From: Olsenella sp. An285 | GTDB taxonomy: Bacteria > Actinomycetota > Coriobacteriia > Coriobacteriales > Atopobiaceae | Direction of reading: 5' to 3' | Assembly: GCF_002159625.1 (NCBI RefSeq) | Contig: NZ_NFIZ01000008.1 | Span: forward strand, 1 to 64,000 | DNA: 64,000 nucleotides | Shown: in pieces, positions 12,999 through 27,251 of the stretch | Layout of the letters: each line of letters begins with the position of its first letter | Numbering within the stretch: position 1 is the first letter of the stretch | Translations under genes and position numbers: made by a program | Notes under the pieces: generated by a model | The model's input: the letters and a program-made list of their open reading frames with translations, nothing else | Database searches by the model: none | Told to the model about the DNA's origin: nothing

Positions 12999-13192
12999 AC
13001 GCCTCGTAAAGTCTTGAGGCAGTCACTTATCGAATAAGCTCGAAATGGAATTCAACGGCCTCTAGCTGCTGCTTCTAGAATATCTCGATTAGCAGCCGTG
13101 TGTGGCAGAAGAGCGAAATGGGTCCGTATTTAGAGGGGATGAAAATGGGTCGCAACCGAGATTTGGTTTCCGTTATCGTCCCCGTTTATAAC

Positions 13193-13374
13193 GTGGAGAA
13201 GCATCTGGATCAATGCCTCGAGAGCATCCTGGGGCAGACCTACCGGAACCTCGAGATCCTCCTGATCGACGACGGTTCGACGGACAGCAGCCTGGAAATC
13301 ATGAACCGCTATGCAGAGCAGGACCCGCGCATCCGCGTGTTCCACAAGGAGAACGGGGGCGTCTCCTCGGCACG
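13193..13374 (+). repeat. Duplicated GT2 5' segment, copy 2
   Basis: Counterpart of 12060-12241, with 8 differences in 182 bases by hand count. Downstream of it the two genes diverge at both DNA and protein level. Confidence 0.85.
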
Positions 13375-13395
13375 CAATATGGGCCTTGAAACGAT

Positions 13396-13404
13396 GGGGG
13401 GGGG
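13396..13404 (+). repeat. G9 homopolymer tract inside a glycosyltransferase gene
   Basis: Nine consecutive G on the coding strand encode Gly-Gly-Gly in the frameshifted GT2 paralogue. The intact paralogue has no run at the same codons. Long G tracts in surface-glycan genes are classic slipped-strand phase-variation sites in other bacteria. Confidence 0.7.
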
Positions 13405-13741
13405 ATACTGCACATTCGTAGATGCGGACGGCCATGTGTCAGAAAGGTACATCGAGCGACTCTATTGTGGGCTAAGGAAATACGATGCGGATTTGTCGAT
13501 TTGCGGATACTGCTCTGTAGCGCCTAATGAAGAAGCTCGCTTTTCTTCAGATCACGATAAACAAATGAGCTGGGTAATACCTTCGACGGAGTTTTCCTTC
13601 TTTGAGAATGATTGTGGCTCGGCCCATTTCGTAAGCTGGGGAGCTCTTTACAAGAAATCGCTTATATCAGATTTGAGATTCGACGAGAGTATTTTCTATA
13701 GCGAGGATGCGTTGTTCTTTACAAATTATAAAGTACGAAGT

Positions 13742-13747
13742 AAAAAA
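13742..13747 (+). repeat. A6 run at the frameshift point
   Basis: Adding one A here restores a continuous, gap-free match to the paralogous GT2. It is therefore the most likely site of the one-base loss that ends the first frame at 13759. Confidence 0.6.
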
Positions 13748-14268
13748 GCGTTCGTATAAATGAGGAGCTATATGCCTACGTAAGGCACGAACAGTCTGCC
13801 ACGCACGATGGTTACAATCCGAAAATGTGGACTGAAGTGAATGCTTGGAATGAAATCGTCAATCAAACGAAAAGCGGCCCTGCTAACCTACACAAGTCGG
13901 CAGAATCGTTTTATGTACTCAATTGCTCCGCGATTTTATCTCGCATGCTGTTCAGCCCGTACTATAAACCAGAGAAGGCGCGATATCTAATTCGAGAGAT
14001 CCGAAGGCACTATAAGGCAATTTCTTACATACCCAGATCAAGATGTTTGCTTCGCAGCCGTTTGACTGCGACGCTGCTGTTTCCTCGACTAACTTCAGTT
14101 TTATTGAGATGCAAGGCGGAGGGTTTCCGGAATGCAAGCACTGCTTTGTTCCGAGCCGTTTTTCTCGATAGGGGAAAGACGGAGGAATGAATTTCGAGCA
14201 TTGCATCTGAGCAAGGTTGTTCAGGCGGTTACCTTCTTTAACGCAGAGTTTTGTAGGAAAACAATCGT

Positions 14269-15582
14269 ATGTTGAGTCTGCAATCGAACAACTTTATATC
14301 AGTGCTGCGCACAGCCTGCGGCAACAGTAAACAGCCGCTGTATCAGCCGGATTGGTCAGCCATGGCGCAGGTGGCTCGCGCCCAGTCGCTCACGGCGCTG
14401 TTTCACGAAGGCGCGCGCCAATACGACGAGTTCGTCTCATGGGATGCTCCCGAGCGCCAGCAGTTGCAGGCTGAAACCATGGCTTGCGTTGTCGGCCAGA
14501 TGCAGCGTACTCAGCGGTTTTTGGGGCTATACCAAAAGCTATTGACTGCCGGCCTGCGCCCCATCGTGCTCAAGGGCATTCTTTGTCGCGTGCTGTATGG
14601 TCCCCTGGCTGACTACCGCCCTTCCTGCGACGAGGATCTTTACGTCCCGCCCGAGCAAATCGCTGCAGCGCACGAGGTCCTGCAGCAAAACGACTGGCAG
14701 ATGACCTCTCATCCCGAGAGCCTCGCGGTTCCCGAAACCCTGCAGGTAATCGGCTACGAAGACGGGCAAGGCATCCTTCCGCTGGAGGTCCATCCCACGT
14801 GGGCCGGCACGGGCAGTCCGCGTCAGGATGCGGAGAACGCCTGCTTTGCCGCCGCGGACGAGCGCGCGGTTGTCGTCGAGGTGGAGGGCATTCCGCTCCT
14901 GTCGCTCGAGCCGACCGACCATTATCTGTACTTGTTCTTACACTTGGCGAAGCACTTTGAGCTTGCGGGTGTGGGGCTGCGGCAGATCATCGATCTCGCG
15001 CAGTTCCAGCGCGCGTATGACGATCAGATCGATTGGCGCCGCGTTCGCAGGGAGATTCGTGAGCTTTCATCCCCCAGCCTGCATGCAGATGCCATGCAGA
15101 TCGCACGCCTTCTGGGTTTTGAGGTGCAGGAGCTGTTCCGCCCGGTCGATTCTGATCGGCTTCTGGACGACTGTCTGACCGGTGGCGTTTTCGGGTTCGC
15201 ACGAGAAGGGCATGGGCGCGGAGCGATTCTTTCCATTGCTGCTCGCTATCCGACCAAGGCATCCCGTCTGCGGCGCCTGGTCGCCCCAAGTGTTTCGCAG
15301 CTCCAGGACGGCCGTCCGTGGTTGGTTGGGCGCCCATGGCTCCTTCCGGTCGCGTGGGCTCAGCGCGCCGGGAGGCTGATGTTCGACGGCAAATGGAGCC
15401 GCATCACGGCAGGAGCTCTGAAGGAGGCCCACCAACGACTGGAGCTTCTGCGCAGGTACGGCCTGGCAGCGGGAGAACAGGCGGCGCATCGGTCCGCTCA
15501 AGGCGGGGGTACCATAACAAATGACCCCTCAGAGCAGGGCCATGACCAGCACGACCAGACACCCGGAGGGGCGACGTCATGA
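14269..15582 (+). CDS. Nucleotidyltransferase-like protein (PF14907-type)
   Basis: A 437-residue protein of the uncharacterised nucleotidyltransferase family that accompanies peptide-modification clusters (a member tailors some lasso peptides). The core is GLRPIVLKGILCRVLY followed by PLADYRPSCDEDLYV, where D-E-D occupies the metal-binding position. LPLEVHPTW and a conserved YLYLFLHLAKHFE segment follow. The C-terminus is polar (ITNDPSEQGHDQHDQ). It is the first gene after the broken GT2 and is coupled to the PqqD-like gene by an ATGA overlap. By analogy it may transfer a nucleotidyl or phosphoryl group to a peptide or glycan; this is inference. Confidence 0.8.
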   Translation: MLSLQSNNFISVLRTACGNSKQPLYQPDWSAMAQVARAQSLTALFHEGARQYDEFVSWDAPERQQLQAETMACVVGQMQRTQRFLGLYQKLLTAGLRPIVLKGILCRVLYGPLADYRPSCDEDLYVPPEQIAAAHEVLQQNDWQMTSHPESLAVPETLQVIGYEDGQGILPLEVHPTWAGTGSPRQDAENACFAAADERAVVVEVEGIPLLSLEPTDHYLYLFLHLAKHFELAGVGLRQIIDLAQFQRAYDDQIDWRRVRREIRELSSPSLHADAMQIARLLGFEVQELFRPVDSDRLLDDCLTGGVFGFAREGHGRGAILSIAARYPTKASRLRRLVAPSVSQLQDGRPWLVGRPWLLPVAWAQRAGRLMFDGKWSRITAGALKEAHQRLELLRRYGLAAGEQAAHRSAQGGGTITNDPSEQGHDQHDQTPGGATS

Positions 15583-15959
15583 AACTGAAGGATCAGCTCA
15601 TCCTGCGCGAGGTCGCAGGGCAGTACGTTATCGTGCCTACGGGCAAGCGGGTGCAGGAAGTGACGTCGATCGTCTACATCTCGTCTTCCGCCGCGTACCT
15701 GTGGGAGTACATGAAGGACCACGAGTTCACGAGGGAAGACCTCGTCAATCGCATCATGGGACACTACGTAGGCGTGACGGAGGAAAAGGCCAGCGCCGAC
15801 GTGGATCGGTTCCTCAAGATCCTTGAGGACAACAATATCCTCGATGACGGCGTGAAAAGGGGCAGGTCCGTCGCGCGCATGTCCAAGGAGTTTTTCGACA
15901 AGCTCTGGCCAGCCGGCGGTCCGTCAAAGCAGCGGGACGGCGGTGACGGCCAAGCATGA
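15579..15959 (+). CDS. PqqD-family peptide-binding (RRE) protein
   Basis: A 126-residue protein with the PqqD fold, a RiPP recognition element that presents a leader peptide to modifying enzymes. Typical features are LILREVAGQYVIVPTG (strands 1-2), the SIVYISSSAAYLWEYM helix region, and FTREDLVNRIMGHYVGVTEEKASADVDRFLKILEDNNIL, given here in pieces: FTREDLVNRIMGHY (residues 50-63), then a Val/Asp/Leu-rich helix to residue 90. A 35-residue basic tail follows. It overlaps both neighbours by ATGA, and the next gene is a radical SAM enzyme, the usual PqqD partner. Fold call firm; client peptide not identified. Confidence 0.85.
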   Translation: MKLKDQLILREVAGQYVIVPTGKRVQEVTSIVYISSSAAYLWEYMKDHEFTREDLVNRIMGHYVGVTEEKASADVDRFLKILEDNNILDDGVKRGRSVARMSKEFFDKLWPAGGPSKQRDGGDGQA

Positions 15960-17023
15960 CGCGCAACTTTGAGCCGGCATGCCGCCAGATGGACTGGCTT
16001 GACCCGTTCCACAAGCAGGTGTGGGAGAGAGCTTTTGCCGACGGCATCCCCATCTCGGGTACCTTTGAGCTGACGCCGCGCTGCAACTTCAACTGCAAGA
16101 TGTGCTATGTTCATCTCAAAGCGGAGGACATTCCCCGCCATGGGCGCGAGCTGTCCGCCAAGGAGTGGCTGCGCATAGCAGAGGAAGCGCGTGACGCCGG
16201 GACCACGTGGGTCTGCGTGACCGGCGGCGAGCCGCTCATGCATCCGGAGTTCGAGGAGATCTGGACGGGTCTGGCCCAGATGGGCTTTTTTCTTACGCTG
16301 CAGACCAACGCCTCGCTGGTCAGCGGCAAGATGGCAAAGCTGCTGGAGCGGTATCCGCCCCGGCAGGCAAAGGTTACGCTCTACGGCACCACCGACGAGG
16401 TGTACGAGGCGGTCTGCGAGGTCAACGACGGCTTCACCCGCGTCAACGACGGCATTCACACGCTGATGAGCTTGGGTATTCCGGTTGAGCTGGTGAGCAC
16501 CATCATCCAGCCCAACGATGGCGACGTGGAGAACATGGCGCTGTACGCCGTGCGCCACGGGCTCAAGTGGCTGCCGACGGGCAGCGTGAAGCCATCCCTT
16601 CGCGGCGCGCAGACAGATGCGGAGGCGGTCCGTCTGGAGCGCAAGAACATTCCAGCCTCGCTGCGGAAGATGGATTACTTCCTGGAGCATCCTGTCGATC
16701 CGGATAGGAAGCCGTGTACGTACTGCAAGGACTACCGCGTGGGCTACTGGATCACGTGGGAAGGCCAGATGCGGTTCTGCAGCTTCTTGAACGAACCATT
16801 CATTCCCGTGAGAGACCATTCATTCCGCTGGGCGTGGAATGCGCTCCTTGCATTTGAGGGCGAGTTAGACTGGCCGGATGAATGTCATGCCTGCTCAGCG
16901 CGGAAGGTTTGTTTCAAATGTGCCGCTTCGCTGGCATCAATGAGCGGCAGCCTGCATGAGGTTCCGAAATGGTATTGCGATAAGATTCGACAAATGTATG
17001 CGAATTTGAAAGGGCGCCCGTGA
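15956..17023 (+). CDS. Radical SAM/SPASM-like enzyme
   Basis: A 355-residue radical SAM protein. The 4Fe-4S cluster motif is C43-x3-C47-x2-C50 (PRCNFNCKMC), and VTGGEPLMHPEF (about 86-97) binds S-adenosylmethionine. The C-terminal part has clustered cysteines (CTYC near 253, RFCSF near 275, CHAC and CFKC near 312-323), as in SPASM domains that hold extra clusters for peptide modification. With the overlapping PqqD-like protein it forms the standard pair for post-translational peptide crosslinking or epimerisation. The gene's last 150 bases are less GC-rich. The substrate is unknown; the small protein encoded next is one candidate. Confidence 0.87.
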   Translation: MTRNFEPACRQMDWLDPFHKQVWERAFADGIPISGTFELTPRCNFNCKMCYVHLKAEDIPRHGRELSAKEWLRIAEEARDAGTTWVCVTGGEPLMHPEFEEIWTGLAQMGFFLTLQTNASLVSGKMAKLLERYPPRQAKVTLYGTTDEVYEAVCEVNDGFTRVNDGIHTLMSLGIPVELVSTIIQPNDGDVENMALYAVRHGLKWLPTGSVKPSLRGAQTDAEAVRLERKNIPASLRKMDYFLEHPVDPDRKPCTYCKDYRVGYWITWEGQMRFCSFLNEPFIPVRDHSFRWAWNALLAFEGELDWPDECHACSARKVCFKCAASLASMSGSLHEVPKWYCDKIRQMYANLKGRP

Positions 17024-17403
17024 TGGAAGGCGAGATCTACACCGAAGTGGACGCGAGCGTCCTGAATCCTGGAATCAGTACCATGGCGATGGTCTCGGGA
17101 GATTCTGAGCCTCCTGAGGGAGTAACCCCTGTCTTTATTTGGATTAGATGGCGCTATGACGACGCGACGGGCGAGGGCGGGTTCACCGGAAGTGGATGGT
17201 ACGTCGGTGACTCCAACAACGTCCTTTCGGAGCACTATTCCACCGAGGAGGCTTTCATCAAAGATCTGCTAGCGAATGGAAAGCCATGGCTGGACAGCCT
17301 GCTCCAGGGTTGGGACGAAAGCAAGAAGATCATGTTCTTTGTGAATAATCAGGCTACCTTAGGAGCTGGTAATTGCTTTGATGCGGCGGTTTCAGGGGCA
17401 TAG
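17023..17403 (+). CDS. Unrecognised 126-aa protein between radical SAM enzyme and P-loop kinase-like gene
   Basis: I recognise no family. The protein is acidic, with a Gly-rich middle (TGEGGFTGSGWYVGDSNN), a Trp-rich segment (VFIWIRWRY, GKPWLDSLLQGW) and a C-terminus FFVNNQATLGAGNCF with a single Cys. There is no signal peptide or transmembrane span. ATG 17023 overlaps the radical SAM stop (TGATG); GTG 17020 is an alternative. Its 3' end overlaps the next gene by 23 bases. Position makes it either a substrate/precursor of the modification enzymes or an accessory subunit. It is longer than typical RiPP precursors. Confidence 0.75.
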   Translation: MEGEIYTEVDASVLNPGISTMAMVSGDSEPPEGVTPVFIWIRWRYDDATGEGGFTGSGWYVGDSNNVLSEHYSTEEAFIKDLLANGKPWLDSLLQGWDESKKIMFFVNNQATLGAGNCFDAAVSGA

Positions 17404-18229
17404 GTTGAAGGATAGGGCGTTCCGAGGGCCATTATTCTCGTTTGCCGACATCGTCCTGTACGTTGGAGACGCCACTCCTCAAGGAATGCTGGACAAGGCC
17501 TGGATGCGCTTTTCGTTTAATCGAGATTCCTCCGAGGACGTTGACATCACCCTCACCTGCGCAAGTCCCCTGTCCACCGACTACCTCGTAGAACGCTACC
17601 CTCTGCCTGAGGGCGTCGCGCAGGCATACCGCTACGGCTCCGATGTCCTCTTGGCAAACCAAGACCTCAGCGTCTGCACCATGCTGCCGCCGCTTGACCC
17701 CATGAGCTTCTCTGTATTGAGCAATCAGGTGTTCTACACCCACGCCGCCCGTCGCCAGATGCTGCAGCTCCACTGCGCCACCGTGGACGACGAGGGGCGG
17801 GGCATCCTGTTCCTCGGTCCCTCCGGCATCGGCAAGACCACGCAGGCGGAGCGCTGGGCCCAGTATCGGGGGTCCTCCATCATCAACGGCGACATCGGGC
17901 TCGTGCAGCGCACGGACGAGGGATACGTCGCCTGGGGTACCCCGTGGCACGGTTCCTCCCCTTATTGCCTGAATGCCAGCGTACCCGTCAAGGCGCTGGT
18001 GGTGCTCAAGCAGGCGCCCGAGAACCGGCTGCGCGAGCTTGCGGGCTTTGAAAAGGTAGGCGAGGTCTCCGGCAGCGTGTTCTATCCCACGTGGCTCGAG
18101 GACGGCATGGGGCTCTGCACGGACACGCTCAACCATCTCCTGACCGACCTGCCGGTCTATCGCTTGGACAACCGTGCCGACGAGGAGGCTGTCAACCTGC
18201 TGGCAGCCGAGCTCGACCGCATCTCATAG
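17381..18229 (+). CDS. HPr kinase-like P-loop protein
   Basis: A 282-residue protein related to the HPr kinase/phosphorylase C-terminal domain found in RiPP clusters, where homologues phosphorylate a peptide. Walker A is GPSGIGKTT (about residues 145-153), SIINGDIGLV holds an Asp in the expected metal/Walker B region, and PWHGSSPYCLN with PVKALVVLKQ follow. It lacks the N-terminal HprK sensor domain, so it is not the carbon-catabolite kinase. ATG 17381 is used; TTG 17405 after CAGGGG is an alternative. Four bases separate it from the ABC exporter. Function assigned by family and context only. Confidence 0.78.
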   Translation: MRRFQGHRLKDRAFRGPLFSFADIVLYVGDATPQGMLDKAWMRFSFNRDSSEDVDITLTCASPLSTDYLVERYPLPEGVAQAYRYGSDVLLANQDLSVCTMLPPLDPMSFSVLSNQVFYTHAARRQMLQLHCATVDDEGRGILFLGPSGIGKTTQAERWAQYRGSSIINGDIGLVQRTDEGYVAWGTPWHGSSPYCLNASVPVKALVVLKQAPENRLRELAGFEKVGEVSGSVFYPTWLEDGMGLCTDTLNHLLTDLPVYRLDNRADEEAVNLLAAELDRIS

Positions 18230-18233
18230 CCAC

Positions 18234-20066
18234 ATGAAGTATCTGATCGCCTACATACGCCGTGTTGCCCGCCGCATACGCGAGGGCAAGCTGCAGGAGC
18301 TGTTTTCCCAGCTCATGTGGATAGGGCACTACATCAAGATGTTCTGGCTGCCCATCGGCGGATACACGCTGCTCAACATGACCGGTTCCGCCCTGGGGCT
18401 GCTGACCACCATGGCATCGCGGACCCTCGTCGACAGCGTCACGGGGCACGATAGCGGCATGCTCGGCCTCGCTGCGGCGGCGTACGTGGGCGTCGGCGTG
18501 GGCCAGATCTTCGTCTCGGCCATCCGCAGTCGTATGTCCCTTCGGATCAACCTGCACATCTCGCAGGGCATTCGCCTGGACATCTTCGACCAGGTGATCC
18601 AGGCGGACTGGGAGGCCATGTCCGCGTACCGCCCCGGCGACATCCAGTATCGCCTGGGCGGGGACGTGATGATGGTCATCAACAACGTGCTCACCTTCAT
18701 CCCAAGCCTCATGTCCATGCTCGTGAGCTTTGGCGGCGCCTTCGTGGTCATGATGCAGAACGACCCTGCCATGGCGGCCATCGCCCTCTGCGGTGCGCCC
18801 GTCTCGCTGCTGGTTTCTCGCTACAACATCATCAAGATGCGCGAGTATCAGAAGAAGAACCAGGAGTTTGCCAGCCAGAACGTCTCCTTCAACCAGGAGC
18901 TCTTCCAGAACCTGCAGACCATCAAGGCGTTTGGCCTGGTCGATACCTTCACCGGGCGCTACCGCGAGCAGCAGCGGGAGTCGGTGCGCATCCAGCTGGA
19001 TCGTAACAAGTACCAGCAGCTTGGCAACATCCTCACCTCACTTGTGGGGCAGGCAATCGGCTACGCGTGCTATGGGTTTGCCATCTACCGGCTCTGGCAG
19101 GGGCAGATCAGCTACGGCACCATGACCATGCTGGTGGGCATGGCGGGATCGTTGCGCTCGTCCTTCTCGTCTGTGGTCAATCTGGTGCCCAGCGCGCTGC
19201 GTGCCTGCGTGAGCGCTGGCCGAGTCATGGAGATCACCGAGCTTCCGCGAGAGACGGCGGTGGAGACGACCAGGCTTAGGCGGATGTTCGAGCGTGCCCG
19301 CGAGACGGGCGTGCTGGTGGATATGCATGGCGTCACCGCCGCCTACGCGGAGGGCAAGGCGGTCTACGAGGGCGCGGAGTTTCGCGCGGCACCAGGGGAG
19401 ATTGTTGGCCTGGTGGGTCCCTCGGGTCTGGGCAAGACAACAACCCTCAAGCTGCTGCTGGGTCTTCTTCACCCCCGTGCAGGGCAGGTGAGCGTGAGCT
19501 GCGGGGACGAGGGGCCCGAACAGGTCTCTGCCGCAACGCGGAGGCTCTTCAGTTACATCCCGCAGGGCAACACGCTCTTCAGCGGAACCATCGCAGACAA
19601 CGTGCGCCTCATGCGTCCGGATGCCTCCGACGAGGAGGTGGAGCGGGCGCTCAGGGCCGCCTGCGCCTGGGACTTTGTGAGCGAGCTGGAGGACGGGCCC
19701 GACACCGTTGTCCGGGACAACGCGCAACGTCTCTCCGAGGGGCAGAAGCAGCGCATCTCCATCGCACGTGCCGTGTTGGCGGACGCCCCGGTGCTGCTTC
19801 TGGACGAGGTGACGAGTGCCTTGGACGTTGCCACCGAGCGCCGCGTGCTGCGGCAGATCGTGAGTCACAATCCGCGGCGCACCGTCATCGTGACTGCCCA
19901 CAGGCCAAGCGTCTTTGAGCAGTGCACGCGCGTGTATCTGATCGACGACGGCAGGTTCGAGGAGATTGACGAGGGACGGCTGCGTGAGTTTCTCGGCGAG
20001 GATACCCCGAGGTCTCTGGGCTCTGGATCGGCGAGCCAGAAAGGCGAGAGGAACGATTCATGCTGA
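18234..20066 (+). CDS. ABC exporter, fused membrane and ATPase domains
   Basis: A 610-residue half-transporter: about six membrane helices in residues 35-330 and a nucleotide-binding domain with GPSGLGKTT (Walker A, about 394-402), FSYIPQGN (Q-loop), RLSEGQKQR (signature), VLLLDEVTSALD (Walker B) and VTAHRP (H-loop). There is no C39 peptidase domain, so any leader would be removed elsewhere or not at all. It lies within the peptide-modification block and probably exports its product. ATG 18234 is chosen because the sequence before it is the overlapping end of the upstream gene. Its stop lies 7 bases inside the next gene. Confidence 0.9.
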   Translation: MKYLIAYIRRVARRIREGKLQELFSQLMWIGHYIKMFWLPIGGYTLLNMTGSALGLLTTMASRTLVDSVTGHDSGMLGLAAAAYVGVGVGQIFVSAIRSRMSLRINLHISQGIRLDIFDQVIQADWEAMSAYRPGDIQYRLGGDVMMVINNVLTFIPSLMSMLVSFGGAFVVMMQNDPAMAAIALCGAPVSLLVSRYNIIKMREYQKKNQEFASQNVSFNQELFQNLQTIKAFGLVDTFTGRYREQQRESVRIQLDRNKYQQLGNILTSLVGQAIGYACYGFAIYRLWQGQISYGTMTMLVGMAGSLRSSFSSVVNLVPSALRACVSAGRVMEITELPRETAVETTRLRRMFERARETGVLVDMHGVTAAYAEGKAVYEGAEFRAAPGEIVGLVGPSGLGKTTTLKLLLGLLHPRAGQVSVSCGDEGPEQVSAATRRLFSYIPQGNTLFSGTIADNVRLMRPDASDEEVERALRAACAWDFVSELEDGPDTVVRDNAQRLSEGQKQRISIARAVLADAPVLLLDEVTSALDVATERRVLRQIVSHNPRRTVIVTAHRPSVFEQCTRVYLIDDGRFEEIDEGRLREFLGEDTPRSLGSGSASQKGERNDSC

Positions 20067-20902
20067 AACTGCTGAGGAGGGTGGCTCTGGCGGCGCTGGC
20101 GCTGGCTGTTGCGGTGTTCGTGTTTGCCGAGGTGCGGGAGCTGGTTTCTCGTGACGACACGATGCCCAGCATCTCCGCCGATAGCGACTCCATCGACATA
20201 ACCTGTGAATACACGACGGAGCAGCTCACGGAGGGCGTCACGGCGTCGGATGCCAGAGACGGTGACCTCACCAGCCAGGTGCTGGTGGGCAGCTTCACCC
20301 GCTTCATCCAGCCCGGCGTCTGCGACTTGAGCTACGTGGTGTTTGACTCCGCGGGGAACATGGCCACGACGAGCCGCAGGGTTCGCTTCATGGACTACCA
20401 CTCCCCGCGCTTCTCGCTTTCAGCGCCATTGGTCTTCTCTGAGGGCTCCACTACCAACGCTGATGTCCAAGGGATGTTCTCTGCCGCGGACATGCTGGAT
20501 GGCGACCTTACGGATTGGGTCACCTACGGCGGGACTGATGCCTCCTACGACACCCCTGGTGATTACTCCATCACCATGGAGGTCACGAACAGCTTTGGCG
20601 ACACGGCAAGCTATGCGTTTCCCATACACGTCTACGAGCGCGGATCGCAGAACCTTTTCATCGAGCTGACCGAGCCTTTGGCATATGTGGTTCAGGGAGA
20701 CGGCTTTGACCCGCTGGCATACGTCGCAAGCGTCACCGATGCCTCGGGCGGGGGCTATGATCCGGCTCAGCTGCAGGTGAGCTCAAACGTGGACACCTCC
20801 ACCCCGGGGATCTACGAGGTCCACTATCAGATGGGCGGCGCCGAGGACGTGCCGTACGGCCAGATGTGGCTGACCGTCATCGTGGAGGGGGCGTTGTCAT
20901 GA
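20060..20902 (+). CDS. Membrane-anchored protein with tandem Ig-like (DUF5011-type) domains
   Basis: A 280-residue protein with one N-terminal hydrophobic anchor (VALAALALAVAVFVFAEV, residues 8-25) and an outside portion of about three beta-sandwich repeats. VTASDARDGDLTSQV, then MFSAADMLDGDLTDWV, with PGVCDLSYVVFDSAGN and PGDYSITMEVTNSFGD, are the DxxDGDLT/DSAGN patterns of bacterial Ig-like domains. It overlaps the ABC exporter and the Wzz/BY-kinase gene, bridging the peptide-modification block and the polysaccharide machinery. It may bind the exported product or the glycan at the surface; this is inference. Confidence 0.8.
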   Translation: MLKLLRRVALAALALAVAVFVFAEVRELVSRDDTMPSISADSDSIDITCEYTTEQLTEGVTASDARDGDLTSQVLVGSFTRFIQPGVCDLSYVVFDSAGNMATTSRRVRFMDYHSPRFSLSAPLVFSEGSTTNADVQGMFSAADMLDGDLTDWVTYGGTDASYDTPGDYSITMEVTNSFGDTASYAFPIHVYERGSQNLFIELTEPLAYVVQGDGFDPLAYVASVTDASGGGYDPAQLQVSSNVDTSTPGIYEVHYQMGGAEDVPYGQMWLTVIVEGALS

Positions 20903-22266
20903 GCAGGGGAGGAGTGGTTCTTGACGGCGTTACGGTGCGCGAGGCGGCACGCCAGGTGGCCCAGAACTGGTGGGTGGTGCTGGCTCTTGCGCTGGCGACC
21001 TTCCTGGGCATGACGGGCGTGGGGAAGCTGACCTACGTTCCCGAGTACACCTCCGCCGCGACGCTGGTGATTCGCGTGAAGGGGGCGGACGCCTACTCGT
21101 CCCTTGCCCAGGCGAGCCAGATGACGGCGGTCTACAGCGAGGTGTTCCAGAGCTCGGCGCTGAGAAACGAGATATCCGCGAGCGTGGGCGAGCCCGTGGA
21201 GGGAAGCGTGTCCTGCTCGCAGGTGTCCGGCACCAACCTGCTCACGCTAAGCGTCACCTCGCCCACGCCTCGGCAGGCATACCTGTTCATCCAGTCTGCC
21301 CTCCAGAACTACGAGCGGGTGTCTGGCTACGTGTTCTCCAACGCAACGCTGCAGCTCGTGCAGGAGCCATCCGTGCCGGAGAGCCCCTCGAACACGTCAC
21401 CGCTCATTGCGTACCGCTACCTTGGCGCCGCGATTGCGGCACTTGGCGCCGTGGCGCTCATAGCCCTGATCTACCTGCTGCGCAATACCGTCAAGACGGC
21501 GGAGCAGGCGTCCGACCTCCTGGACGGAAGGGTGCTCGGGACGGTCCCGTTTGAGCGCAAGCGCGTGGTCAGGGGCGGTGACGAGAGGTCCGTTCCGGCG
21601 CTGGTGCTGTCCTCGCCCCTGGTGAGCATGGGCTTTGCCGAGGCAAACCGCCGCACCGCGACGCGCCTCGAGGCGCACCTGCGCTCGGGAGGCTTCAAGA
21701 CCGTGCTGGTTGCGAGCGTGGAGGAGAACGAGGGAAAGTCCACGGTCGCCGCAAACCTGGCAGCCGCCCTGGCCGAGCGCGGCAGGCGGGTGCTGCTGAT
21801 CGACGGCGACTTTAGAAAACCCGCGCAGCGGCGCATCTTTGACGAGCAGAACCTCGAGCGCCCGTCCTTCTCGGACTACGTGCTCGAGGACGGCGTGGCG
21901 GGCGTGGGCCCGGTGCTGAACGGGCGAAGCGGCGTCTACGAGCTCTTCCAGTACAAGGCGCTGCGTGATCCCATGGCGGTGTTTAGCGGCGAGAGGCTTG
22001 CAGATGTGATGGCGGAGCTGAGCGAGCGGTTCGACTACATCTTCGTGGACTGCTCGCCCGTCGCCGCGGCGGCGGATGCGGAGCTCTGGATGCGCCAGGT
22101 GGACACCGTCGTCCTGGTGGTGCGCCAGGACATGACCGACGTGCGCGTCATCAACGACACGGTGGACGTTGCATGGAAGAGCGCCGGGGACTTCTCGGGG
22201 TTTGTGCTCAACGCCTTCCAGGGTGAGTGGTCCCTGACCCATGGCCGGGGCTACAGCGCGTACTGA
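20899..22266 (+). CDS. Wzz/CpsC-CpsD fusion, first BY-kinase copy
   Basis: A 455-residue polysaccharide co-polymerase fused to a bacterial tyrosine-kinase domain. Two hydrophobic spans (about 22-42 and 172-195) flank an extracytoplasmic Wzz loop (TLVIRVKGADAY). The kinase domain has ENEGKST (divergent Walker A, near 276), VLLIDGDFRKP (A', near 298) and YIFVDCSPVAAAADA (Walker B). The tail has only two Tyr (RGYSAY), unlike the second copy. ATG 20899 overlaps the previous stop. It controls chain length and probably assembly of the Wzx/Wzy complex. The divergent Walker A and short tail suggest a regulatory or specialised partner of the next gene. Confidence 0.88.
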   Translation: MSRGGVVLDGVTVREAARQVAQNWWVVLALALATFLGMTGVGKLTYVPEYTSAATLVIRVKGADAYSSLAQASQMTAVYSEVFQSSALRNEISASVGEPVEGSVSCSQVSGTNLLTLSVTSPTPRQAYLFIQSALQNYERVSGYVFSNATLQLVQEPSVPESPSNTSPLIAYRYLGAAIAALGAVALIALIYLLRNTVKTAEQASDLLDGRVLGTVPFERKRVVRGGDERSVPALVLSSPLVSMGFAEANRRTATRLEAHLRSGGFKTVLVASVEENEGKSTVAANLAAALAERGRRVLLIDGDFRKPAQRRIFDEQNLERPSFSDYVLEDGVAGVGPVLNGRSGVYELFQYKALRDPMAVFSGERLADVMAELSERFDYIFVDCSPVAAAADAELWMRQVDTVVLVVRQDMTDVRVINDTVDVAWKSAGDFSGFVLNAFQGEWSLTHGRGYSAY

Positions 22267-22292
22267 GGCAAGGGAATCTAGTGGGAGCGGAT

Positions 22293-23837
22293 ATGAACGA
22301 CAGAAGGTACGGTCTCGACCTCTCGCCCGTGCGAGATGAGGAGCAGGGGCTGGACATGGCAGAGCTTGCCAGCAACTATCTTCGCATTGCCCGGCGGATG
22401 TGGTGGCTGTTCCTTGCGTGCGTTGCAATCGGGGTCGGCTGTCTGTATGTTGCGAGCTACGTGAGCTATACGCCGCTCTATCGCAGCGAGGCGACCTTTA
22501 CCATCACGTCTGGCGACGGCAGCAGCCTGTATAGCTCCGTGAGCTCGGCGAGCCAGCTCTCCAAGACGTTCCCGTACGTTCTGGACAGCAGTTACTTCAG
22601 AGGCGTGCTCGAGGATGCACTGGGCACTGACTCGCTTGACGGCACCATCGAGGCGCAGACCATTGATAACTCCAACATGGTCACCATGTGGGTCGATAGC
22701 GCCTCCCCAGAGAACGCGCGCGCCATTCTGGAGAAGGCGCTCGAGGTGTATCCGGAGGTCTCCCGATTTGTGCTGGGCAACATTGCCTTCAACCTTATTG
22801 ACGAGATTTCAACCCCTGCAACTCCGGTGAATGAGCCGAGCCAGAGCAGAATCTGGGGATTTGGGGTGATGGGCGGCATATGCACTGCGGCGCTTGTGGT
22901 TGGCCTGATTGCCCTCTTCAACAATACGATTAAGACGGCAGAGGACCTGGAGAGCGTCTCCAGCATGGTGTGCCTGGGGGCGCTGCCCGAGGTTCGTGCC
23001 AAGGCACGTAAGAGGAGCGCTGCGAGCAGGTACGTCTCCGCGCTGGACAAGCGCGTCTCGCATGGGTTCAGGGAGAGTGCGCGGGCGATGGGTGCGCGCG
23101 TTCGTGACGCTCTGTCGGAGCGCGGAGCAAAGGTGGTGCTGGTCACGAGCAGCATTGCCGGCGAGGGCAAGTCAACGGTTGCCATCAACCTGGCCGAGCA
23201 GCTTGCGCAGGACGGGAGCAGGGTGCTGCTGGTCGACATGGACCTGCGCAGCCAAGGGGATGGCGCGCTGCTGGGGTGCGGGGCGAGCCATGGCCCGGCA
23301 GAGGTGCTCGAGGATTCCGGTCTTGGTGTGGATGACTGCATCGTCTTGCTCGAGGAGAGCGGCATTGGCTTCTGGGGCGGTGCCGGGCCTGTTCAGAACC
23401 CCGTTGAGGTGCTGAGTGACGAGAGGCTGCCGTCGCTGTTTGATGGGCTGCGGGGGCAGTGGGACTACATCGTCCTAGATGCCTCCCCATGTGGCATGTT
23501 CCAAGATGCGGCGATGCTCGCCAACTGGGTGGATGAGGTGCTGTTTGTGGTCCGGTTTGACAAGGTGGGCCGCCACAACGTTCAGGATGCCCTGTCCATG
23601 TTGGATGGCGAGAGGGCGTCCGTGCTGGGTTATGTCTTGAATGGCTGCCCGCAGACCGCAGGAAGCTATGGGTATGGGTATGGCCGCTATGGCTACGGGA
23701 AGTACGGGTATGGATCGTACGGGGACGGGTATGGCGGGCTGGCGGATGAGGTTGACGAGGGAGTTAAGCCCGTCGTTGAGCCCGAGATTGTTGAGGAAGA
23801 GGTTGTGCCGCCGCGCGGGAAGCACTTTAGAGTATAG
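22293..23837 (+). CDS. Wzz/CpsC-CpsD fusion, second BY-kinase copy with tyrosine-rich tail
   Basis: A 514-residue co-polymerase and tyrosine autokinase. Hydrophobic spans lie near residues 33-56 and 186-209. Walker A is the canonical AGEGKST (near 289), A' is VLLVDMDLRS and Walker B is YIVLDASP. The tail (about 456-482) is a Gly-Tyr repeat with nine Tyr, followed by an acidic end (VEPEIVEEEV). Phosphorylation of this cluster and its removal by the CpsB-like phosphatase at 26526 is the known cycle that sets polymer length. ATG 22293 follows GGGAG. The tail is encoded by an imperfect GGGTAT/GGCTAT-type tandem repeat. Confidence 0.92.
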   Translation: MNDRRYGLDLSPVRDEEQGLDMAELASNYLRIARRMWWLFLACVAIGVGCLYVASYVSYTPLYRSEATFTITSGDGSSLYSSVSSASQLSKTFPYVLDSSYFRGVLEDALGTDSLDGTIEAQTIDNSNMVTMWVDSASPENARAILEKALEVYPEVSRFVLGNIAFNLIDEISTPATPVNEPSQSRIWGFGVMGGICTAALVVGLIALFNNTIKTAEDLESVSSMVCLGALPEVRAKARKRSAASRYVSALDKRVSHGFRESARAMGARVRDALSERGAKVVLVTSSIAGEGKSTVAINLAEQLAQDGSRVLLVDMDLRSQGDGALLGCGASHGPAEVLEDSGLGVDDCIVLLEESGIGFWGGAGPVQNPVEVLSDERLPSLFDGLRGQWDYIVLDASPCGMFQDAAMLANWVDEVLFVVRFDKVGRHNVQDALSMLDGERASVLGYVLNGCPQTAGSYGYGYGRYGYGKYGYGSYGDGYGGLADEVDEGVKPVVEPEIVEEEVVPPRGKHFRV

Positions 23838-26430: not shown

Positions 26431-26525
26431 GAGACGATGTGGTGAGGGAATGCGCGCGGCATTTTGGTGATTGATTATGTAGCCAGCAAGAAATCGTCGC
26501 GGCTACGGGCCACGGGGAGATGCTG

Positions 26526-27251
26526 ATGAGGAACTCGATCGACATCCACTGCCATATACTGCCGGGCCTTGATGACGGGGCGGAAACGCTTGAGGATGCC
26601 ATCCGGATGGCACGAGTTGCGGCGGGCTCTGGCGTGAGCCACGTTGTGTGCACGCCGCACTGCTCGGCCAGCGATCGAAACCTTCCATCGCGCATCGAGA
26701 GGATTCGTCGCTGCGTGGACGCTCTTGGAGGCGAGCTCGGTAGGCTGGGGATTCCGCTGACGCTCCATGCGGGCATGGAGCTTCTCTGTGACGGAGGCCT
26801 GGCTCGGGCGCTGGAGCGTGGGGAGGTCCTCACGCTTGCGGGGTCGAGGTGCCTGCTCATCGAGTTTCGATTTGATGTGAGGGTAGCGGCAATCGAGCGT
26901 GCGGCTGCCGAGGTGAAGCGGGCGGGCTACGTTCCGGTGCTGGCGCACCCGGAACGTTATCCGGTGGTCTGGGAGACCCCGGAGTGCATGGAGATTTGGG
27001 CCAGCGAGGGCTATCTCCTCCAGCTAGACAAGGACAGCGTCCTCGGGCGCTTTGGTCGGCGTTGTGCATCGGTCTCGCGCTGGGCCCTGAGCAGGGGGCT
27101 TGTCTTTGCGATCGCCAGTGACGCCCATGGTACGAGGGGACGGACCCCCGAGATGCGCGCGGTGTGGAGTGCCATTGAGAGGGAGTTTGGTCCCGCGCTG
27201 CGCAGACGGCTGATGGATAACGGCATGTCTGTCCTTCGTGATTTCGGATGA
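26526..27251 (+). CDS. PHP-type tyrosine-protein phosphatase (CpsB/CapC/YwqE family)
   Basis: A 241-residue metal-dependent phosphatase. DIHCHILPGLDDGA (residues 6-19), VVCTPHCSA, HAGMELLCD, LIEFRFD, LAHPERYP and IASDAHGT are the PHP metal-binding motifs in order. It dephosphorylates the tyrosine-rich tails of the BY-kinases encoded at 20899 and 22293. ATG 26526 has GGGGAG seven bases upstream; ATG 26520 would overlap that site. GC content returns to the genomic level here, so the AT-rich block ends at the flippase. It is the last gene of the polysaccharide locus. Confidence 0.93.
   Translation: MRNSIDIHCHILPGLDDGAETLEDAIRMARVAAGSGVSHVVCTPHCSASDRNLPSRIERIRRCVDALGGELGRLGIPLTLHAGMELLCDGGLARALERGEVLTLAGSRCLLIEFRFDVRVAAIERAAAEVKRAGYVPVLAHPERYPVVWETPECMEIWASEGYLLQLDKDSVLGRFGRRCASVSRWALSRGLVFAIASDAHGTRGRTPEMRAVWSAIEREFGPALRRRLMDNGMSVLRDFG

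Follow-up and report, generated by a model that had tools for sequence, protein, structure and literature searches.

The first 64,000 nucleotides of contig NZ_NFIZ01000008.1 from Olsenella sp. An285 (the window) carry, at 14269-20902, a block of seven genes inside a capsule operon. We consider it probable that this block is a biosynthesis and export cassette for a ribosomally synthesized and post-translationally modified peptide (RiPP), namely a radical SAM (rSAM) variant of the tailoring core of linear polyphosphorylated peptides (LPPs) and paeninodin, in which an open reading frame (ORF), here called X, would serve as the precursor. Gene order, protein families, intact catalytic residues, the pairing of X with one rSAM clade and the nesting of the window rSAM among Bacillota were computed directly. 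The genes of the proposed cassette are:

14269-15582, + strand: nucleotidyltransferase-like protein (NTase) of the NTP_transf_5 family, PsmN/LppN type (PF14907, E = 1e-40)
15579-15959, + strand: PqqD-type discrete RiPP recognition element, RRE (PF05402, 1.6e-11)
15956-17023, + strand: radical SAM/SPASM peptide maturase (PF04055 Radical_SAM, 1e-22)
17023-17403, + strand: X, proposed RiPP precursor, a 126/127-aa ORF of a 12-member family without a known family match
17378-18229 (start 17378/17381 or 17405), + strand: HPr-kinase-like (HprK-like) kinase (ScmC TIGR04249, 6.5e-7, and structural model)
18174-20066 (likely start ATG 18234), + strand: MsbA-like ABC exporter (PF00664 ABC_membrane and PF00005 ABC_tran)

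These domain families agree with an earlier note on the same DNA, which had proposed a peptide-maturation cassette built from an RRE and an rSAM enzyme together with a lasso-type kinase and NTase. A contig scan with the window rSAM protein recovered 63 loci (given L numbers here, and genomes G numbers), mostly from gut or rumen Clostridia; L117-L121 (E = 5e-8 to 8e-6) were excluded as weak, and counts below refer to the other 58 loci plus the window (59 loci). The closest rSAM relative is from an uncultured Gemmiger (77% identity), whose ABC exporter is 84% identical to that of the window. Among the 59 loci, PqqD was found within 2.5 kb in 49 and HprK in 47, an ABC gene within 5 kb in 20, an NTase within 9 kb in 15, and a signal-peptidase gene within 5 kb in 11. 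The rSAM cysteines of the CxxxCxxC motif (C43/C47/C50), C257 and C275 are present in 28/28 aligned copies, and the remaining SPASM-region cysteines in 25-27 of the 28. Likewise, H132, the P-loop K153, N170 and D172 of the kinase are retained in all 25 aligned copies, and K102-G103 and D121-x-D123 of the NTase in 14/16. The rSAM gene of L067 is in pieces. The solved enzymes closest to the window rSAM by sequence are PqqE (6c8v), SkfB (6efn), MoaA and 5v1q, which we take to be SuiB. Matches of the kinase by sequence were weak (PF07475, E = 0.0043; NCBIfam ScmC, 6.5e-7), and its assignment is supported by a confident model (predicted local distance difference test, pLDDT, 90.9) whose first match is to PEP carboxykinase, with HPr kinase structures ranking lower. 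For the exporter, the best NCBIfam match is MsbA-related, below cut-off, and the domain scan gave no match to a C39 peptidase domain, as the earlier note had stated.

All seven ORFs lie head to tail and run on into genes for Wzz/BY-kinases, and the overlaps or near-contacts that led the earlier note to call them coupled can be read directly in the window. The NTase/PqqD and PqqD/rSAM junctions each overlap by 4 nt, and rSAM and X share a TGATG overlap that places the X ATG at 17023. For the kinase, the possible start sites are 17378/17381, which lie within X, and an in-frame TTG at 17405; translation of the exporter probably begins at ATG 18234, 4 nt past the kinase stop. The seventh gene, for an Ig-like protein (Ig), overlaps the first Wzz/BY-kinase gene (BYK1; ATG at 20899) by ATGA, as previously noted. 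The order NTase-PqqD-rSAM-X-HprK-ABC-Ig-BYK1-BYK2-CpsB was also found in L059 and L061, and most of it is kept in L060 and L062-L065, of which L063 is from the cultured clostridial relative Pseudoflavonifractor sp. An44; because it recurs in this way, it is not a product of chance. Compared with L059 and L061, only the window has a glycosyltransferase (GT2) gene and a Wzx-like gene inserted between BYK2 and CpsB.

The earlier note had seen no obvious precursor, a role that X most likely fills. An X-family ORF occupies the slot directly after the rSAM gene in 11/11 rows of one rSAM clade (support 99/93), and in L064, where the PqqD-rSAM-HprK module is doubled, X is doubled as well. A 12-member profile searched against 1.41 Mb of loci returned those 12 ORFs as the only matches up to E = 10, and each member of the family adjoins either one of these cassettes or a lone PqqD. 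X carries a leader-like N-terminal GxxYxxVxA, a central W..GG[FY]xGxGW and a C-terminal Cys, the only Cys in the window copy; a Trp, a Gly, a further Trp and a Cys 2-8 residues from the end are common to all 12 proteins. X genes differ from one another mainly at the third position of codons, the pattern expected of a coding sequence. Identities of X to its counterparts in L059, L061 and L062 are 50%, 32% and 50%, respectively, compared with 78%, 76% and 72% for PqqD and 77%, 70% and 61% for rSAM, such that X diverges faster than both in all three pairs compared. Domain scans placed X in no known family, and its best solved relative (E = 0.67) is not convincing. A single-sequence search found the family in 1/140 genomes of the host family, and a search of the order around Gemmiger in 2/394 genomes, both already known. 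X was found in 8/12 genomes of the chosen loci, the misses being those of L066, L067, L069 and L101, and a 10-row X model missed an L066 copy that is visible by eye.

The earlier note had suggested looking for conserved short ORFs near other copies, and these exist, either as X or as peptides with a YxxP motif after rSAM. A small ORF fills the gap after rSAM in the inspected loci with the order PqqD-rSAM-HprK; in the other group the encoded peptide is short, begins with a KxYxKP-type sequence, usually contains several Cys and in many cases ends in Ser. In L069, the row that lies just outside the X clade in the tree (93/72), the leader reads FVEP. Since X pairs with one rSAM clade and this outgroup has a different leader, the type of proposed substrate tracks enzyme phylogeny. 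In Ruminiclostridium cellobioparum (L101/L106:9444-11522), three different YxxP-type candidate precursors, one of them Gly/Trp-rich, surround a single rSAM gene.

The RRE has features consistent with recognition of such a leader. A profile of 21 relatives matches the RRE structures 5v1u/5v1v, 9x90 and 6jx3, and also LppB (9x8z, E = 9.7e-5). In the reported LppB-LppA structure, Asp70 forms a bond with the Tyr of the leader, its Pro is contacted by packing of Phe74, and Asn33 holds the kink at this Pro in place (PMC13381572). By our own alignment via 9x8z, D74 of the window RRE is equivalent to LppB D70 and is nearly invariant in the 21 sequences, and the Phe at the position of LppB Phe74 is also kept. 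The position of LppB Asn33 is Ser in ten aligned X-type RREs, a change that is not diagnostic because some YxxP relatives also have Ser there. In the X family, the Tyr of the YxxP leader motif is kept and the Pro is not (Yxx[V/I] near the N-terminus in 10/12 proteins). Judged from sequence, this pattern fits a leader that has retained Tyr and lost Pro, and RREs that read W/Y/LxxP/L/I have been reported (PMC12710340).

We infer X to be the substrate and envisage the following steps. The extreme N-terminus of X (17023-17403), GEIYTEVDA, would dock on the PqqD-type RRE, and the SPASM rSAM would install a radical cross-link involving the conserved C-terminal Cys. A thioether is the likeliest guess for this bond, the nearest solved enzymes making several bond kinds. 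The HprK-like kinase would then phosphorylate a hydroxyl residue and the NTP_transf_5 protein is predicted to cap that phosphate with a sugar or nucleotide, by analogy with the chemistry reported for PadeK/PsmK/PsmN (PMC9266682) and LppK (PMC13381572). The MsbA-like exporter would secrete the product. As the block yielded no leader peptidase, any trimming would have to use a peptidase from outside it; the genome encodes an LPP-type signal peptidase on contig 15. Because the block is laid out for co-expression with the capsule chain-length genes, the product most likely acts at the cell surface.

Several observations weigh against this interpretation. X is long for a precursor and keeps internal motifs, and it could be a folded partner; its own model is poor (pLDDT 50.7). 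Divergence of X proves little by itself: in the comparison with L059, identities of the NTase (51%) and CpsB (49%) are similarly low, and in that with L062, X is about as conserved as HprK (51%) and ABC (55%) and more so than NTase (31%) or CpsB (38%). L064 and L065 showed no NTase within 9 kb, and none was seen in L066 and L067, which are cut by contig ends. In L132, X lies beside PqqD with no rSAM adjoining. Only 1/12 X proteins ends in Ser, the residue reported to be phosphorylated by paeninodin-type kinases (PMC9266682), which leaves the kinase without an obvious target on X. In favour of the interpretation, a C-terminal Ser was found in 24/35 hand-picked YxxP-type precursors of related loci, compared with 66/792 genes; the 35 were chosen by eye from 114 pattern hits plus one further peptide, the others being judged chance ORFs, with duplicate rows of L106 and a second copy in L084 dropped, and the rows are not phylogenetically independent. 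We therefore rejected the C-terminal Ser as a universal kinase site, since it fits the YxxP-type precursors and not X. The L132 locus itself (L132:8173-8838, G441:C114) has PqqD directly followed by the X-family ORF; its contig also carries BYK, Ig and CpsB, and the same genome has another X, beside an rSAM gene.

Phylogenetic analysis of rSAM (71 rows; L040/L041 dropped as duplicates of L071/L072, and L067 absent on account of its fragmented gene) placed the window protein among Bacillota, as sister to Gemmiger (100/97). Of ten other Coriobacteriia rows, seven (L071, L072, G220) group in a clade of their own (100/100), and L044, L047 and L054 fall elsewhere, two of them on long branches. rSAM matches at 1e-20 are rare in the host order (2/247 genomes drawn from it), and genomes of the same genus, G104 and G106, hold rSAMs of 35-37% identity (L072, L071). 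Given this nesting and rarity, the block was apparently acquired by horizontal transfer from Clostridia. Within Coriobacteriia, G220:C8 (L055, L056) has three related rSAM genes around genes for LytTR-like (by eye), PqqD, HprK, ABC, NTase and BY-kinase proteins.

The position with chain-length genes would also fit feedback control, and it is possible, if somewhat unlikely, that the product is a secreted signal (an autoinducing RiPP) through which capsule or biofilm genes are adjusted, and not a structural part of the glycan. Pointing in this direction, five loci that have X or an X-clade-like rSAM carry regulator genes immediately before PqqD: a GHKL kinase and LytTR regulator (L060:124-2281), a histidine kinase and response regulator, the latter by eye (L062:3068-5719), LytTR response regulators (L065:2125-2892 and L067:8478-9221) and a LuxR-type regulator (L063:8081-9400). 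Such regulators favour a product that is regulated and possibly self-sensed. By contrast, the NTase is the gene directly upstream in the window, L059 and L061, where no such regulator was recognised, no systematic search having been made.

The genes that follow the cassette in the window are:

20060-20902, + strand: membrane-anchored Ig-like protein (PF16403, 1.6e-18), belonging to the adjoining Wzz/BY-kinase module
20866-22266 (likely start ATG 20899), + strand: Wzz/BY-kinase 1, BYK1 (Wzz PF02706, 9.6e-5; TIGR01007, 2.3e-30)
22227-23837, + strand: Wzz/BY-kinase 2, BYK2 (AAA_31 PF13614, 3.8e-10), clustering with BYK1
26520-27251, + strand: CpsB/CapC phosphatase of the same capsule locus (PF19567, 2.8e-54)

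The surrounding operon further encodes LCP and NusG-like proteins, glycosyltransferases, pyruvyl and acyl transferases and a flippase-like protein (weak match, below cut-off). Upstream of the block, at 13100-14190, a GT2 glycosyltransferase gene is broken by a frameshift beside an A run, for which phase variation, decay or sequencing error are possible causes.

A capsule marker was detected by hidden Markov model (HMM) in 8/9 usable X-clade loci (leaving out L066 and L067, which contig ends truncate), and the ninth, L074, has GDP-sugar-like (nucleotide-sugar) genes by eye. Across all rSAM loci, a marker was found in 23/59, or in 18/34 where at least 5 kb is available on both sides. The earlier note's expectation that the block always sits in exopolysaccharide loci therefore holds for the X clade and fails for rSAM relatives as a whole, for which we rejected a strict capsule association. 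Movement independent of such genes, which the note had counted against its proposal, was partly borne out by distant rSAM-HprK-PqqD relatives without a capsule gene in the flanking sequence available. It is unlikely, in our view, that a functional glycan link is lacking altogether, with capsule loci acting as recombination hot spots and the RiPP cassette as a passenger, perhaps a bacteriocin. Transfer of the block between phyla and the modest marker frequency of the wider family are in line with such a passenger, as are the reported LPP histories, which are patchy with high gain and loss, typical of conflict genes (PMC13381572). Against it stand the capsule genes of the X clade and the finding that Ig-BYK genes adjoin rSAM cassettes beyond that clade too (L069, L090, L091, L099, L108, L109).

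The earlier note had counted the Ig-like protein as a seventh cassette member, which we rejected: Ig occurs in 14/59 rSAM loci, BYK genes are present in all 14, and five of the 14 have no ABC gene within 5 kb, indicating that it belongs with the capsule chain-length genes. Ig was found in 4/140 genomes of the host family, with a strong match only in the window genome (E = 1.5e-7 to 9e-4 in the other three). Several distant rSAM-HprK-PqqD relatives adjoin very large proteins; for that of L091, a scan of the C-terminal end revealed MucBP repeats together with a Gram-positive anchor, and an N-terminal piece of that in L110 had no Pfam match. In addition, a protein of ~250 aa with a signal-like N-terminus lies beside HprK-rSAM-PqqD in 27/59 loci (no Pfam match for the one copy scanned). 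A surface role may thus be a common thread across rSAM relatives, a glycan role not being general. In L075-L113, from rumen and gut Clostridia, HprK-rSAM-PqqD is often preceded by a very large protein, a Ser-terminated, Cys-rich YxKP peptide and the ~250-aa protein, and these cassettes look like a phospho-rSAM peptide group for which we found no description.

The very large neighbouring proteins of distant relatives would suit X being a folded accessory protein, with the enzymes acting on another protein such as the anchored Ig or a surface protein encoded elsewhere, as would the length of X (~95-140 aa across the family) and its conserved internal W/G motifs. We regard this as quite unlikely. 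Many distant loci still have separate short precursor-like peptides, YxxP peptides occupy the X slot in related loci, X has an RRE-type N-terminal motif, and Ig accompanies BYK in the five loci that have no nearby ABC gene. An extension of the precursor role of X, in which X, once matured by radical chemistry, is phospho-capped by HprK and NTase with a sugar or sugar-nucleotide and is then covalently linked to the capsular polysaccharide, or serves to prime or terminate it, as a ribosomal peptide-glycan conjugate, is very doubtful. A plain LPP cluster with a decayed or irrelevant rSAM gene is highly improbable. The RRE, HprK, NTase and MsbA-like exporter match the reported LPP core (PMC13381572), but the rSAM cysteine motifs are intact in all aligned copies, rSAM is among the slower-evolving genes, and the window block has neither a signal peptidase within 5 kb nor a YxxP precursor.

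We compared the block, read as an rSAM-bearing RiPP cassette, with known systems. LPPs (Popov et al. 2026, PMC13381572) have a reported core of RRE, HprK, NTase and MsbA-like exporter, occur inside capsular loci and are described as restricted to Bacillota. The window block shares the discrete RRE, HprK-like kinase, NTP transferase and MsbA-like exporter (4/5 of the reported components), as well as an N-terminal aromatic leader motif and the capsular setting. It differs in adding a radical SAM/SPASM enzyme, in its Actinomycetota host, in a candidate precursor that is long, ends in Cys and has YxxV in place of YxxP, and in lacking SpI, an archaeal-type signal peptidase I of LPP clusters (PMC13381572). 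No SpI was found within 5 kb in the window or the other 8 usable X-clade loci, whereas a signal peptidase is present in 9/12 ABC-bearing loci outside the X clade (L069, L089 and L105 being without). In the window block, rSAM stands in place of the cyclase or signal peptidase. Elsewhere, rSAM, HprK, ABC and signal-peptidase genes occur together in nine loci (L068, L070-L073, L081, L101, L106, L112), and five signal-peptidase copies tested, including one from contig 15 of the window genome, match the archaeal-type SpI model TIGR02228 (E = 2.9e-10 to 2.6e-4, below cut-off). That contig 15 locus (G000, L039:6029-12130) has HprK, PqqD, an SpI-like peptidase, ABC and NTase, no rSAM seen, and an upstream 136-aa ORF that contains YDKPI; it resembles an LPP cluster and, being in an Actinomycetota host, falls beyond the Bacillota range reported for LPPs.

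Paeninodin/pseudomycoidin-type lasso peptide clusters, reported to pair a kinase (PadeK/PsmK) with the nucleotidyltransferase-like PsmN (PMC9266682), share the kinase, the nucleotidyltransferase-like protein and a discrete RRE with the window block. They differ in that the window genome has no B2 domain or full Asn_synthase. No lasso cyclase or B2 had a Pfam match among 30 window ORFs, in agreement with the earlier note, and genome-wide there was no PF13471 (B2) and PF00733 (Asn_synthase) gave only two partial matches, on contig 30 (45 and 36 of 354 positions), which argues against a lasso route. A lasso_B2 match of 13825-14190 (E = 0.03) was rejected, the ORF being the other frame of the frameshifted GT2 gene. 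Among NCBIfam models, the kinase and rSAM are matched best by those of SynChlorMet (Scm; TIGR04249/04250/04251), namely ScmC (6.5e-7) and ScmF (7.6e-24), respectively, both falling far short of the cut-offs (29 vs 125 bits and 84.8 vs 400 bits). SynChlorMet cassettes contain PqqD-like, HprK-like and SPASM proteins and have two rSAMs, whereas the window block has one, in a capsule setting. Sactipeptides and ranthipeptides (SkfB, PapB and RumMC type) share a SPASM rSAM, an RRE and a Cys-bearing precursor (a candidate here), with SkfB among the solved structures nearest to the window rSAM. The hallmarks of an rSAM/SPASM RiPP locus, namely CxxxCxxC and SPASM cysteines, an RRE and an adjoining Cys-bearing candidate precursor, were all found in the window. 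The block differs in its kinase and NTase tailoring and in the single Cys of X, and the linkage is predicted.

The earlier note had known of no described system with this combination. That view needs revision, since all parts but rSAM make up the LPP core reported from capsular loci (PMC13381572), and SynChlorMet models are the best matches, far below cut-off. The terms "radical SAM", "rSAM" and "SPASM" are not mentioned in the main text of the LPP paper, and no description of the combination with rSAM was found among the matches listed in literature searches (open-licence PMC only). With these results, LPPs would gain a radical-SAM branch that has a precursor family of its own, new to this system, and is present in a gut bacterium of the Actinomycetota, and some loci carry both the LPP-type peptidase and rSAM. 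LPPs, paeninodins and the rSAM branch all occur in capsule operons, and a compact cassette with a precursor candidate makes the reason for this directly testable.

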